NCBI GenBank assembly: GCA_030620215.1
Contig: JAUXFE010000005.1
Location: forward strand, 1 to 13,208
Origin: Candidatus Peregrinibacteria bacterium
GTDB lineage: Bacteria > Patescibacteria > Gracilibacteria > UM-FILTER-43-11
Length of the DNA: 13,208 bases
Direction: 5' to 3'
Below, piece by piece: positions 4,225-13,116 of the stretch. A program made the position numbers and the translations under genes. How positions within the stretch are numbered: position 1 is the first letter of the stretch; each line of letters opens with the position of its first letter. The notes under the pieces are model-generated. The model was not told where the DNA came from and made no database searches. It saw only the letters and a program-made list of their open reading frames with translations.

Positions 4225-5448
4225 CTAATCAGCAGTTAAAATCTTTTCCAAATCATAATCTTCTGGGCGTTTCACGAATTTCTTGGCTTTTTTATAATTG
4301 TCTTTTTTCAGGTAATGCATATTGGAAAAAGCCAATTTATAGTCTTCTGCATTTACATCTACAAGCCTCACTTTGATTTTACTCGTCTTTTTATCCTCGA
4401 TATCTTTGAGGTATAACGGAGAAATTTTGCCGTTTGCTTTAGCTATTACAATACAGCCTGTGTGGCCTTCGTCATATAGCTTTTTGACCCCCATACCAAG
4501 CATGGTGCAGTAATTAAGATCGAATGCGGTGGGGTGGCAAGAGCGTACCCCATAACCTATTTCAACAGGGCGACTTTTCACAACCATTCCCAATTCCTTT
4601 AATTTTTTCTGCAATAGTATGTTGAAAATATGAGCCTTGGATACTATACCAAGCTCCGGATGACCGTGTTCATCAAATGTAAAATTAATTCCTGAGTTAA
4701 TAATTTCATCTTCATCCATATAATGAAATAGTCCTTCACTTATCATAATTGCACCGTGATGTACGCCGATTGTTTTGCGTACCAAGATCGATGAAATCAT
4801 CATATCAATGATTTTGGAGAAGGTGATTTTCTTCCCTCTAAACATTTCAGGGATGATCACAAGTGGATAGTGGCATGCTGTTCCTATTCCGAAAGCGAGA
4901 TGACCTGCCTCTCTTCCCATAACTGAAACCACGAACCAGTTTCCACTACTTCTGGCGTCTTCATAAATTGTCTGGGCTATGCGAGCCCCCTCGTTTTTTG
5001 CTGTTCGGAAGCCAAAAGTAGGGAGCCTTTCAGGAAGTGGCAAATCGTTATCAATTGTTTTGGGAACGTGGATATTTTTTACATTAACTTTTTTCTTCTT
5101 TAAATATTTGGTAAGGCGATTTGCCGTAGAAGCTGTATCGTCGCCGCCGATTGTAACAAGTAGTTTTACGTTGTTTTTGGTGAAAAATTTTGTGTTGAAC
5201 TCGGAATCTTTTGGTTTATAACGGCTCATACGAAGTACGCTTCCTCCGCGGTTATAAATATAATCCGCGTAGGCAAAATCAAACTCAACAGTCTCAGGCT
5301 TATCTGTAAATATTGTTTTGGTTCCCTCGTTAAATCCAATAACACGCCAATCTTCTTTTAAAAATGATTTTGCAATCGAGCTGATTACTGAATTTATCCC
5401 TGGAGCTGGTCCTCCGCTGCATAAGATGGCGATTGTTTTCTTTTTCAT
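4225..5448 (-). CDS. pfp: 6-phosphofructokinase, predicted pyrophosphate-dependent
   Basis: A cytoplasmic glycolytic enzyme phosphorylating fructose 6-phosphate to fructose 1,6-bisphosphate. The 407-residue length fits the PPi-PFK branch rather than the roughly 320-residue bacterial ATP-PFK. Motifs in order: GGPAPGIN (12-19, donor loop), GGDDT (101-105), PKTIDND (129-135, catalytic Asp in TIDND), MGREAG (177-182, substrate loop) and ISEG further on. D104 (GGDD rather than the ATP-type GGDG) and K130 (PKTIDND rather than PGTIDND) are the established pair marking PPi as phosphoryl donor, which would make the step reversible. It is last in the fba-gap-pfp cluster, separated from gap by the four-helix-bundle element, whose left repeat starts only 11 bp upstream of this ATG. 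There is at best a weak GGAAA at Shine-Dalgarno distance. The donor prediction is from residues alone. Confidence 0.88.
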   Translation of the reverse strand: MKKKTIAILCSGGPAPGINSVISSIAKSFLKEDWRVIGFNEGTKTIFTDKPETVEFDFAYADYIYNRGGSVLRMSRYKPKDSEFNTKFFTKNNVKLLVTIGGDDTASTANRLTKYLKKKKVNVKNIHVPKTIDNDLPLPERLPTFGFRTAKNEGARIAQTIYEDARSSGNWFVVSVMGREAGHLAFGIGTACHYPLVIIPEMFRGKKITFSKIIDMMISSILVRKTIGVHHGAIMISEGLFHYMDEDEIINSGINFTFDEHGHPELGIVSKAHIFNILLQKKLKELGMVVKSRPVEIGYGVRSCHPTAFDLNYCTMLGMGVKKLYDEGHTGCIVIAKANGKISPLYLKDIEDKKTSKIKVRLVDVNAEDYKLAFSNMHYLKKDNYKKAKKFVKRPEDYDLEKILTAD

Positions 5449-5459
5449 AATTATTATTT

Positions 5460-5493
5460 CCAGTTGGGGCTCCAGTTGGGGCTCCAGTTGGTG
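5460..5493. repeat. Left inverted repeat: 2.7 copies of a 12-bp unit
   Basis: CCAGTTGGGGCT is tandemly repeated at 5460-5471 and 5472-5483, with a partial third copy (CCAGTTGG) at 5484-5491. The core 5464-5485 is perfectly inverted at 6031-6052. The repeat starts four bases after the four-helix-bundle stop codon and lies within the PFK ribosome-binding region. Confidence 0.85.
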
Positions 5494-5496
5494 AAG

Positions 5497-5868
5497 TTAA
5501 ACAATAATATTAAACTTTTTCTTTTGGTAATTTATATAATTCAAAATCTTAATAGATAAATCTTTATATGATCTCCAATATTTTTTATAGCTTGACTCAA
5601 TTATATGTTTCCCTTGATATAAAGCAACTAAATGACTCTGGGTTTCATCACTGGATCCTAGAGAATAATTGAGAAACCTAATAAAATCTCTTCTATAAAA
5701 TCTCCGACTCCAGCCTTCTACAATGTTGGAATGTATAGAATCAGACGATCGAATAATTTGGTTTACTTCTCCAACATTCCAATTATATGGAATCGTTTTT
5801 GTAAGATTTTTAATATCACCTGCTAATTTAATAGAAAGTTGATATATCACTAATTCGTTATAATGCAT
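5497..5868 (-). CDS. Four-helix-bundle protein (23S rRNA intervening-sequence / S23 family)
   Basis: A 123-residue, all-helical, strongly basic protein. The family signature is clear: the N-terminal NELVIYQLSIKLAGDIKNLT helix; then IIRSSDSIHSNIVEGWSRR (38-56), matching the family's SIPSNIAEG-type motif; RRDFIRFLNYSLGSSDETQSHL (58-79), matching the F..FL.IA.GS..E...L motif; and a C-terminal helix ending in a Lys-rich tail. Relatives are encoded inside 23S rRNA intervening sequences and as free-standing genes, and resemble the Avd accessory proteins of diversity-generating retroelements. Their molecular role is unsettled. No reverse transcriptase or variable repeat is nearby. It is the only gene inside the inverted-repeat element, and its stop codon lies four bases from the left repeat. 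Its bases are more AT-rich than those of the flanking glycolytic genes. Confidence 0.85.
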   Translation of the reverse strand: MHYNELVIYQLSIKLAGDIKNLTKTIPYNWNVGEVNQIIRSSDSIHSNIVEGWSRRFYRRDFIRFLNYSLGSSDETQSHLVALYQGKHIIESSYKKYWRSYKDLSIKILNYINYQKKKFNIIV

Positions 5869-5910
5869 ATTAATTCAATTTAAATACTATTTATTCACTA
5901 ACGAGGTCGA

Positions 5911-5940
5911 AGTGTACAATCTGTGGATACTTGTTGTCAA
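5911..5940 (-). promoter_or_regulatory. Possible promoter of the four-helix-bundle gene
   Basis: Minus strand perfect TTGACA (5940-5935) with a weak -10, TACACT (5916-5911), 18 bp away. The -10 matches only four of six consensus bases, so this is tentative. If real, the element would carry its own promoter within the glycolytic cluster. Confidence 0.3.
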
Positions 5941-5959
5941 ATTAAATTTTTCCTATTTA

Positions 5960-6057
5960 CTCCAATAGGGGCTCCGGTGGGTGCTCCAATCGGGGCTTTG
6001 CAGTTGGTTGTTCACCAAATAAACACCAAAGGAGCCCCAACTGGAGCCCCAATGGAG
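5960..6057. repeat. Right inverted repeat with an internal foldback
   Basis: The segment 6031-6057 is the inverted copy of the left repeat. Just inside it, 5960-5987 is a degenerate same-sense copy that can pair with 6031-6057 as an imperfect stem of about 27 bp, with 5988-6030 as the loop. In transcripts crossing from gap toward pfp this would form a GC-rich hairpin. No T-run follows on the minus strand. Confidence 0.7.
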
Positions 6058-6068
6058 AATATATGAAT

Positions 6069-7070
6069 TTAGGATTTAAAAAGCAATTCCATCATATCCA
6101 CAAGTCTACAAGCATACCCCCATTCATTGTCATACCAAGCTATAAGTTTTAAGTAATTACCCTCAACTACTTTGGTATGACCTGTGTCTATGATACTGGA
6201 ATGCGGGTTGGTTTTGAAGTCGATAGATACCAGTGGTTCGTCACAAATATCTATAATCGCATCGTATTTTGGATCTTTTGCTATGCCTCGAAAGAAATCA
6301 TTTACTTCATCTTCAGTTACTGAGTTTTCAAGATGTATAACAATATCGCAGACTGAACTTGTTGCAATTGGTACTCTATATGCCATTCCATCTAACTTAC
6401 CAGTAAGCTCCGGAATGATTTTAGCAGTCGCCTTAATGGCACCGGTTGTTGTTGGGATAACGGATTGAACAGCTGATCTGGCTCTTCTTAAATCACGTCC
6501 TGAATTATCTAATAAGTTCTGTGAATGAGTAAATGAGTGTATTGAAGAAACAGAAGCATTTTTGATTCCCCATTTTTCATGAATTAATTTAATTGGTGGG
6601 GCAATACAGTTAGTCGTACAACTTGCGTTTGAAACTACTTTATATTCGTCTTTTAGGTCTTGCTCGTTTACACCAATTACAAATGTAGGTGTGTCGTCTT
6701 TCATTGGTGCAGAGACTAAAACCTTTTTAACTCCACCTTCTAAATGGCGTGCAGCTATGTCATAAGTTTTTGCTTTACCTGTACATTCAAGTACAAGGTC
6801 GACACCAACATCTGACCATGGTATTTCTGATGCGTCTTTGATTGCAAAACATTTTACATCTTTGCCGTCTACTGTGATTTTGTCACCGTTTGGCTTTATG
6901 TCGTTTTCAATTTTTCCATGAATTGAATCGTATTTTAAAAGATGAGCGCGCATGACGTTATCTTCTGATCTTGCATTAATAGCCACTACTTCAATGTTTG
7001 GGTGATCGAGTAGTATGCGGTGGACGTTACGTCCTATACGGCCGTAGCCGTTAAGTCCTATTTTTAACAT
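6069..7070 (-). CDS. gap: Glyceraldehyde-3-phosphate dehydrogenase, GapB-like cofactor site
   Basis: A cytoplasmic enzyme interconverting glyceraldehyde 3-phosphate and 1,3-bisphosphoglycerate. At 333 residues it is full length. Rossmann motif GLNGYGRIGRN (5-15); active-site SNASCTTNC with nucleophile C151; general base H178 (SSIHSF); substrate-binding TTTG (207-210); C-terminal WYDNEWGYACR. The residue after AIN, normally the adenosine-ribose-binding Asp of NAD enzymes, is A33, followed by R34. In the S-loop LLDNSGRDLRR, S190 aligns with Ser188 of the NADP-using plastid/cyanobacterial enzyme, where NAD enzymes have Pro. These features resemble B. subtilis GapB and suggest NADP(H) use or dual specificity. 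It lies 84 bp downstream of fba, across a heptad array, and upstream of the four-helix-bundle element. The ATG at 7070-7068 has no Shine-Dalgarno; the leader even reads CCCTCC. Confidence 0.95.
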   Translation of the reverse strand: MLKIGLNGYGRIGRNVHRILLDHPNIEVVAINARSEDNVMRAHLLKYDSIHGKIENDIKPNGDKITVDGKDVKCFAIKDASEIPWSDVGVDLVLECTGKAKTYDIAARHLEGGVKKVLVSAPMKDDTPTFVIGVNEQDLKDEYKVVSNASCTTNCIAPPIKLIHEKWGIKNASVSSIHSFTHSQNLLDNSGRDLRRARSAVQSVIPTTTGAIKATAKIIPELTGKLDGMAYRVPIATSSVCDIVIHLENSVTEDEVNDFFRGIAKDPKYDAIIDICDEPLVSIDFKTNPHSSIIDTGHTKVVEGNYLKLIAWYDNEWGYACRLVDMMELLFKS

Positions 7071-7092
7071 GGTTATGGAGGGTTAAATAATA

Positions 7093-7155
7093 TTTGAGAT
7101 TTCTGATTTGAGATTTCTGATTTAATTCACAATTCTCAAATCTCAATTCACAATT
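7093..7155. repeat. Heptad array (9 x 7 bp, 63 bp) between fba and gap
   Basis: Nine in-phase heptamers on the plus strand: TTTGAGA, TTTCTGA, TTTGAGA, TTTCTGA, TTTAATT, CACAATT, CTCAAAT, CTCAATT, CACAATT. The first four form two exact 14-mers (7093-7106, 7107-7120). AAATCTCAA at 7138-7146 is the reverse complement of TTGAGATTT in the first half, so the array can fold back. Its last base is part of the fba stop codon. Confidence 0.8.
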
Positions 7156-8081
7156 TATATTCGATTCACATTATTCAAAATATCAAGCTTGTGCATCACC
7201 ATTTCCTGAATAGCAGTTCTGGCTGGTTTTAAGTATCCTCTTGGGTCGAAATTTGCTGGATTTTCTTGTAATGCTTTTCTGATTTCAGCTGTCATTGCGA
7301 GGCGAAGGTCTGTATCTATATTAACCTTACATACACCTGTTTTTACCGCTTGTGAAATCATATGTTCAGGTACACCTTTTGCACCCGGAATATCACCACC
7401 GTACTGATTACATTTATCCACAAATTCCGGAATCACTGTTGATGCACCGTGAAGTACAAGTGGGAATCCTTCCAATTTCTTTGTTATTACATCCAATCTT
7501 TCAAAATCTAATTGTGGGTCACCGGTAAATTTAAATGCTCCATGACTTGTGCCGATAGCAATAGCTAATGAATCCACTCCGGTTCTTTCTACAAATTCAA
7601 CTGCCTGATCCGGGTCTGTGTAAGAACCTTCTCCTTCAACAACTTTTACATCATCTTCCACACCTTCTAATTTACCAAGTTCTGCCTCTACTACAACTCC
7701 TTTGCTGTGCGCGTAATCTACAACTTCTTTTGTTAAACGGACGTTTTCTTCGAAGTCGTGGTGAGATCCATCTATCATTACAGATGTAAATCCACTTTCT
7801 ACACATTGTTTGCAGATTTCAAAATCAGCACCGTGGTCCAAATGCATTGCGATTGGAACTTCCGGATGTTCTTCTACCGCTGCTTCGATTAATTTACGAA
7901 GGTATATCGGGTTGGCATATTTACGAGCGCCTGCGGAAACCTGAATAATCACAGGGGATTTTTTTTTGGCACAACCGCCGATTATTCCCTGAATGATTTC
8001 CATATTGTTTACGTTGAAAGCGCCGATGGCGTATCCGCCCTTGTACGCATCTTCGAACATTTGTTTGGAGTCAACTAACAT
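7155..8081 (-). CDS. fba: Class II fructose-bisphosphate aldolase
   Basis: A cytoplasmic zinc-dependent aldolase that cleaves fructose 1,6-bisphosphate to the two triose phosphates, or condenses them. At 308 residues it fits the family. AIGAFNVNN (18-26) opens the barrel. HLDHG (80-84) supplies catalytic D82 and zinc ligand H83; E134 lies in VEAELG; H180 (GTSHGAFK) and H211 (LHGAST) are the other zinc ligands. SHHDFEENV (106-114) and the late NIDTDLR motif are also typical. It is the first gene of the fba-gap-pfp cluster, lying after the lemA terminator, so transcription should begin in the 54 bp before it. That stretch is almost wholly heptad repeat and no clear -35/-10 pair can be singled out. 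The ATG at 8081-8079 has no Shine-Dalgarno. Confidence 0.95.
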   Translation of the reverse strand: MLVDSKQMFEDAYKGGYAIGAFNVNNMEIIQGIIGGCAKKKSPVIIQVSAGARKYANPIYLRKLIEAAVEEHPEVPIAMHLDHGADFEICKQCVESGFTSVMIDGSHHDFEENVRLTKEVVDYAHSKGVVVEAELGKLEGVEDDVKVVEGEGSYTDPDQAVEFVERTGVDSLAIAIGTSHGAFKFTGDPQLDFERLDVITKKLEGFPLVLHGASTVIPEFVDKCNQYGGDIPGAKGVPEHMISQAVKTGVCKVNIDTDLRLAMTAEIRKALQENPANFDPRGYLKPARTAIQEMVMHKLDILNNVNRI

Positions 8082-9078: not shown

Positions 9079-9088
9079 GATATTTATG

Positions 9089-9151
9089 ATTAAAAATTGA
9101 AAATTGAAGATTGAAGATTAATTTTGAATTTTTAATCTTTAATCTTGAATA
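9089..9151. repeat. Heptad array (9 x 7 bp, 63 bp) in the lemA leader, foldback
   Basis: Nine in-phase plus-strand heptamers: ATTAAAA, ATTGAAA, ATTGAAG, ATTGAAG, ATTAATT, TTGAATT, TTTAATC, TTTAATC, TTGAATA. The second half is the reverse-complement family of the first: 9088-9105 pairs with 9120-9137 with one mismatch in 18. It begins ten bases before the lemA start codon. Confidence 0.8.
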
Positions 9152-13053: not shown

Positions 13054-13116
13054 AAATTCCAAATTCCAATTACCAAATTCCAAACAAATTACAAGTTTCA
13101 ATGTTCAAGTTCCAAA
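13054..13116. repeat. Heptad array (9 x 7 bp, 63 bp) upstream of the epimerase
   Basis: Nine in-phase plus-strand heptamers: AAATTCC, AAATTCC, AATTACC, AAATTCC, AAACAAA, TTACAAG, TTTCAAT, GTTCAAG, TTCCAAA. The length equals that of the arrays at 7093 and 9089. ACATTTG (13043-13049) and CAAATGT (13113-13119) are inverted at its edges. Confidence 0.7.

Follow-up and report, generated by a model that had tools for sequence, protein, structure and literature searches.

Genes of the PF05635 family are common, and their products are classed as 23S rRNA intervening-sequence proteins whose function is unknown. In the 23S rRNA intervening sequences (IVSs), a PF05635 gene is located between terminal inverted repeats that form a stem, and the cassette described here was found to contain the same arrangement. 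A transposition or mobile origin of the IVSs has been suggested in the accessible part of PMC4990558, and IVP open reading frames within insertions of the 16S and 23S rRNA genes in CPR bacteria have been reported in the accessible part of PMC11270868. Unlike an IVS, the cassette is located between gap and pfk, outside any rRNA gene, its ends are formed by tandem arrays of 12-bp units, and its relatives include gene-less units.

In the REPIN-RAYT systems, hairpin-forming gene-less units share their genomes with a gene family, as was found here in the relative G002, and their repeat classes are paired to protein classes according to the accessible sections of PMC3116915. Here, in contrast, the gene encodes a small four-helix bundle (4HB) instead of a Y1 transposase, and the ends are tandem arrays. 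The heptameric repeats of Nostoc and Xanthomonas (GGGGAYT, GGGAATC; STRR) form 7-bp intergenic arrays like those reported below, whereas the unit of the window cassette is 12 bp long. In the available text of PMC4692102, 70 and 75 convergent inverted pairs of Xanthomonas heptamers are given for two genomes, heptameric repeats are described as generally not found with mobile elements, and the terms 'four helix' and '23S' are absent. No statement linking PF05635 genes to short tandem or heptameric repeats was found in the open-access literature as far as its text was available, which is weak evidence of novelty. The MITEs also contain short gene-less units with inverted ends, whereas here the ends vary per locus, there is no known parent transposase and there is no clear target duplication.

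The cassette is interpreted here as one gene-bearing member of a mobile family, in which a PF05635 gene is placed between inverted arrays of short tandem repeats and the 4HB protein likely acts on both gene-bearing and gene-less units; a probability of roughly 0.7 is given to this reading. By analogy, the system is best read as organised like RAYT/REPIN, without a recognised transposase. At the level of the element, with an inserted unit, gene-less relatives and arrays that belong to the element itself, this reading is well supported. A role of the 4HB protein as mobility factor is suggested by the co-distribution and by the unit length following the 4HB phylogeny, and the chemistry of movement, in which a 4HB oligomer may bind the hairpins and host enzymes may do the copying, is the least certain part.

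Organisation of the cassette in the window

The window, the whole stretch of DNA that was analysed, contains 13,208 nucleotides from a Candidatus Peregrinibacteria bacterium (contig JAUXFE010000005.1), and the features of the cassette and its neighbours are given in Table 1.

Table 1. Features of the cassette and of the adjacent genes (positions in the window)
Feature	Position	Strand	Basis
PFK, PPi-type phosphofructokinase-like, downstream neighbour	4225..5448	-	ORF and profile matches
Array of about three 12-bp units (TCCAGTTGGGGC), 3' of the 4HB gene	5459..5494	+	Repeat finder, tandem scan
4HB gene (PF05635/TIGR02436, SSDE-type subfamily), 123 aa	5497..5868	-	ORF and profile matches
Promoter-like TTGACA-18 bp-TACACT, 5' of the 4HB gene	5911..5940	-	By eye
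Second, more diverged array, same sense as 5459-5494	5961..5996	+	83% for two units; the middle one by eye
Inverted array of TCCAGTTGGGGC-type 12-bp units, promoter side, beside GAPDH	6031..6057	-	Repeat finder, tandem scan
GAPDH, upstream neighbour	6069..7070	-	ORF and profile matches
Imperfect inverted pair of 7-bp arrays (GATTTCT / AATTCAC-type), GAPDH-aldolase junction	7086..7161	.	74% complementary

The original prediction, that a four-helix-bundle gene of the 23S rRNA IVP family is enclosed by a 22-bp perfect inverted pair, was borne out by the pair at 5464-5485 / 6031-6052 and by the match of the gene product to PF05635 (78.4 bits, cut-off 33.8, E 5.7e-22), followed by a match to TIGR02436 (82.7 bits, cut-off 24). 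The distance of 11 bp from 5460 to the PFK ATG, and likewise from 6057 to the GAPDH stop, was found as predicted, whereas the stop codon of the 4HB gene, said to lie four bases from the repeat, was found 2 to 5 bases from it, depending on the end chosen for the degenerate last unit. The perfect pair is enclosed by a wider 31-nt pair (5455-5485 / 6031-6061) of 87% complementarity. Three features had been missed, namely that the repeats of the cassette are tandem arrays of 12-bp units, that the region 5961-6057 alone contains a short inverted pair (arrays 5961-5996 and 6031-6057), and that the window contains other arrays with 7-bp units. The sequence CCAGTTGGGGCT was found with at most two mismatches six times in the window, five times inside the cassette, against 0.56 expected, and six was reached in 0 of 200 shuffles. 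The motif at 5911..5940 was judged promoter-like by comparison with the consensus.

No Rfam family was found in the window at gathering score, and no Y1 transposase (PF01797) was found among the six window ORFs scanned. Neither the 20-mer of the window unit nor 4HB relatives were found in viral contigs, the cassette DNA had no match in phages or plasmids, and no SSDE-type protein was found in plasmids.

The inverted pair at the GAPDH-aldolase junction failed the stricter paired-array scan and is probably a gene-less unit beside the 4HB unit. More 7-bp tandem arrays were found in the window at 9082-9143, 905-935 and 13054-13084, the first of which is an inverted pair that passes the stricter scan.

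Inverted arrays around PF05635 genes

The protein search gave 42 relatives of the window 4HB protein among 47 candidates, the best of which was 92% identical. Close relatives were found at 12 loci in six Patescibacteria/Peregrinibacteria genomes, and the gene was found by the repeat finder to be flanked by an inverted pair in ten of them, except for L001 and L007. Most of these loci contained by eye a period of 11-12 bp with a unit differing per locus, e.g. GGGATCGAATTG, TGGCTCGAATAG, GTGGGGCAATTG and TGGGTGAACTAA. The suggestion that CCAGTTGGGGCT might be a shared transposon end was therefore abandoned, since the other 4HB loci each have their own unit and it is the architecture and the unit length that recur instead. 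By eye, L003 and L005 appear to occupy one site in two genomes, as do L007 and L011, with neighbours that are presumably ftsK and rsmE in the first case and a peptidyl-prolyl isomerase gene and gltX in the second.

The genomes G001-G006 were found to contain 70 PF05635 matches in total, with 8 to 16 per genome, and the family was present in 111 of the 192 sampled Patescibacteria genomes. In a first test with 100 shuffles, inverted flanks were found in many copies of these six genomes and the unit length seemed to be subfamily-dependent. The wider sample contained the 70 six-genome loci, 10 from other family genomes, the 30 phylum loci returned from the survey of 192 genomes, and 16 of 30 plasmid records (15 cyanobacterial, one Riemerella), repeats and partial matches being skipped; one of these 126 loci contained no closed ORF, leaving 125 copies, of which 124 were testable. 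Inverted flanks that beat all 200 shuffles were found in 96 of the 124 PF05635 copies, against 1 of 59 ORFs of 100 aa or more that were taken as controls from the same loci. The corresponding counts were 52/68 for the six genomes, 8/10 for the other family genomes, 21/30 for the phylum and 15/16 for the plasmids, where short repeats were seen by eye on both sides of all 16 copies and L190 alone failed the flank test. Among the 28 copies that did not beat all shuffles, some contained a 7- or 12-bp periodicity and others (L074, L077) contained none.

The best period among the 96 copies with significant flanks was 7 (46 copies), 14 (12), 12 (9), 8 (8), 11 (7), 9 (7), 6 (3), 15 (3) or 10 (1), with 7 or 14 in 58 of them. 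The terminal sequence was not conserved across copies, the units being locus-specific except for one 4HB type in Nostocales.

A 4HB subfamily of the M.YKDLNVYQRAY type (L066, L067, L069, L070) was found to contain a single conserved inverted pair of about 25 bp and no tandem arrays; this subfamily is possibly domesticated.

Filled and empty sites

Among 288 genomes from the class of G003, eight were found to contain orthologues of the PFK gene with 83-86% identity. GAPDH was present as well at seven of these loci, with gap and pfk adjacent and no 4HB gene by tblastn, so that the predicted insertion between the two genes agrees with all seven relatives in which both neighbours are present. The gap-pfk spacer was 10 bp in L086, 2 in L088, about 12 (by eye) in L089, 24 in L083, 70 in L085, 79 in L087 and 125 in L084. 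The empty sites of L086, L088 and L089 contained no arrays, and inverted short repeats without a gene were seen by eye in the spacers of L085, L087 and L084.

The operon A-B-C of Nostoc plasmids was compared at nine loci (L177 and eight others), covering 68-100% of the 1.7-kb query with 87.6-95.9% identity, a further hit of 41 bp being left out. The A-B junction was found to contain a 4HB unit with AGTCAGG-type arms in three of the nine loci and another insert in one, and was empty in five, where it reads TCTAG GTT ATG or a close variant and contains no arrays. The B-C junction contained a 4HB unit in one of the nine, with different heptamers (GGGAAAA-type arms). The 4HB insertions in Nostoc were located at the stop-start junction. 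Gene-less inverted heptamer pairs were found upstream of A in L194 and L195, and L193 contained a gene-less unit inside a 4HB gene, with heptamers matching the unit of that gene; the gene is thereby broken, and intact copies exist.

An internal hairpin (CCACTAAATC...GATTTAGTGG) was observed in the gene-less unit of L195 and a related one in that of L193, so the gene-less units may have a conserved core of their own.

In Picosynechococcus, the cas10-cmr3 junction was filled in 7003, and 7002 contained no 4HB gene at this position. One 4HB type was found at three sites (L177/L194, L178/L179 and L182) with nearly identical 24 nt upstream, despite genes that are only 80-83% identical, which indicates that at least that arm travels with the gene. 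No clear target-site duplication was found; a possible TTCTA seen by eye in L194 is inseparable from the heptamer itself.

On cyanobacterial plasmids, 4HB units were also observed within CRISPR operons, between cas10 and cmr3 or between cas6 and cas4, at L181 1492-1848, L184 1501-1860 and L186 1495-1863.

Gene-less units and genome co-distribution

In 400 kb of G002, the scan gave 27 pairs of inverted tandem arrays (an earlier version gave 28), against 0 in the Markov-resampled control, which covered the first 11 genomes and the window. Four of these pairs enclose a 4HB gene and 23 are gene-less. The gene-less pairs span 44-118 bp in 21 cases, including a 44-bp pair that resembles a plain hairpin, and more than 1 kb in the two others, which may join separate units. 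After exclusion of one overlapping pair (L205 11523) from both arm-matching tests, the gene-less pairs did not match the 4HB arms of their own genome significantly better than those of five other genomes (9/23; 314 of 2000 permutations as high). In the control with reversed sequences, which was run on the same 23 pairs after that result, 14 of the 23 matched an own-genome 4HB arm with a score of at least 13, and six 4HB units took part in these matches, whereas the reversed sequences gave 1 of 23.

Among 21 hand-picked genomes, 42 inverted arrays were found in 1,068 kb of the 11 with PF05635 and one in 733 kb of the ten without it (p 5e-9, a value which, like the next, ignores kinship). The genome G002 alone contributed 27 of the 42, and 15 in 668 kb remained when it was left out (p 1.3e-4); a few of the 42 resemble coding repeats (G023, G010). 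As to repeats independent of 4HB genes, which the original prediction had named as a refuting observation, gene-less arrays do exist but are nearly confined to sampled genomes with PF05635, and this distribution, together with the 14 of 23 pairs matching 4HB arms, is as expected for paired autonomous and non-autonomous elements. The term non-autonomous element, raised in the original prediction as a possibility for the cassette, suits the gene-less units better, the gene-bearing unit being probably the driver.

Movement of the units in trans by Y1/RAYT transposases, with the 4HB protein as cargo or accessory factor, is considered unlikely. It would agree with the presence of PF01797 matches in all of G001-G006 and in 8 of 11 relatives overall, and with the joint occurrence of PF05635 and PF01797 in 67 of 192 genomes (44 with PF05635 only, 26 with PF01797 only and 55 with neither; p 1.4e-4, odds ratio 3.2), which is more than expected, and the accessible part of PMC3116915 presents RAYTs as the presumed movers of similar hairpin units. 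However, of the 46 genomes that contained four or more PF05635 matches, 14 had no PF01797 match, an absence that weighs little in draft genomes, and the arrays follow PF05635 rather than PF01797, with 11 arrays in 465 kb of six genomes containing PF05635 without Y1 and one in 514 kb of seven genomes containing Y1 without PF05635.

Unit length and protein clade

Among the labelled copies, 11/12-bp units occur only in the 4HB clade of the window. On a tree of 121 proteins, made by a quick method from few columns and with 44 of 118 inner branches open, the division between 11/12-bp and shorter units required one change, against a shuffled mean of 17.6 and 0 of 500 shuffles as low. The labels comprised 19 long-unit and 74 short-unit rows, the window label being assigned by hand from its 12-bp arrays, and the dividing branch had a support of 88 and was not starred. 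An SSDE-type motif was found in 17 of the 19 long-unit proteins and in 0 of the 74 short-unit proteins. With four length classes, 14 changes were required, the lowest of 100 shuffles being 26. A comparison at two orthologous sites did not demonstrate concerted evolution of the two arms, and the arms of L035/L076 score higher between genomes than within one element.

These data bear on a second alternative, in which the arrays are ordinary host microsatellites formed by polymerase slippage and the 4HB genes are passengers settled there. According to the available text of PMC4692102 and PMC4679880, many bacterial genomes contain an excess of heptameric repeats, and slippage has been put forward as their origin. 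This origin is nevertheless very improbable here, because the unit length tracks the 4HB clade, the flanks are inverted in 96 of the 124 genes, the five Nostoc loci and L086, L088 and L089 present empty sites free of arrays, and arrays are nearly absent where the sampled genomes lack PF05635.

Orientation and RNA folding

The direction of the neighbours was shared by 48 of the 55 copies whose two neighbours are on one strand, followed by 7 in the opposite direction (p 1.3e-8), so transcription through the unit probably matters. The minus-strand RNA of 5440-6070 in the window was found to fold far better than shuffles (z = -10.45 against 20 shuffles). Both results would suit arrays that act at the RNA level only, with the stem cut by RNase III as in the 23S rRNA IVSs, sparing the operon, and with spread by rare ordinary recombination; for the Coxiella IVS, cleavage by RNase III at a terminal stem of 28 bp is described in the accessible part of PMC4990558. 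The gene-less units, the tandem structure and the clade-linked unit length are left unexplained by an action at the RNA level only, and this alternative is rated marginally below slippage. A role at the RNA level may exist in addition to the proposed mobility of the inverted-array family.

Predicted fold of the 4HB protein

The predicted fold of the window 4HB protein had a mean pLDDT of 95.4, and Foldseek gave TMq values of 0.86 to XCC0516 (2gsc_D) and 0.79 to BT_0352 (2rld_E), which are also its sole sequence relatives in the PDB. These proteins form pentamers. The next match was Avd of the diversity-generating retroelements, an RNA-binding protein, whose four-helix-bundle fold the model resembles (4dwl_C, TMq 0.72) with a weak E-value of 0.16, such hits ranging from 0.14 to 0.33. 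The PF05635 copies are basic, with a median pI of 9.3 (125 copies). A reverse-transcriptase-dependent element with an Avd-like 4HB protein, as in these retroelements, is the least probable alternative. In its favour are this fold likeness and the presence of PF00078 above cut-off in 3 of 11 relatives (G093, G087 and G113); against it are the weak E-value and the lack of any PF00078 match in the six 4HB-rich draft genomes G001-G006 with 8-16 PF05635 matches each.

Proposed mechanism and implications

In the preferred reading of a mobile family with inverted arrays, a unit with 12-bp repeats here and mostly 7-bp repeats elsewhere would have entered the junction of gap and pfk. Most likely, the 4HB protein assembles into an oligomer with recognition of the repeated units. 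It would act on the units that contain the gene and, in trans, on the shorter ones without it that have matching repeats, as the RAYT transposases are thought to act on REPINs. The arrays may be bound as hairpins in single-stranded DNA or RNA, followed by copying of the unit into new intergenic sites by host replication and repair enzymes. Copying by host enzymes is proposed because neither a reverse transcriptase nor a Y1 transposase occurs consistently. To our knowledge, no catalytic site is known in PF05635, so other proteins must help.

Tentatively, and at somewhat less than even odds, PF05635 may be the driver of a separate class of mobile DNA, in which the ends are inverted arrays with a protein-specific unit length and no transposase, integrase or reverse transcriptase is encoded by the element itself. 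The rRNA IVSs and the heptameric repeats of cyanobacteria and xanthomonads would then be members or remnants of this class. The link to arrays and gene-less units gives PF05635 a testable function, and it provides a candidate explanation for the spread of the rRNA IVSs as well as a candidate cause of the heptameric repeats in bacterial genomes. Units that enter the stop-start gaps of operons, including cas operons, with no enzyme in evidence would constitute a novel mode of DNA movement.

Two minor observations were also made. In the accessible part of PMC5524665, two genomes of Flavobacterium columnare have an entry for a four helix bundle protein gene that is flanked by the guanylate kinase and nadD genes, with spacers of 33-88 bp, an intergenic placement like that of the window 4HB gene. 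In L184, a long tandem heptamer run (AAAGCTA-type) was found on the gene side together with a separate array of the other sense, and the run looks like a recent expansion.
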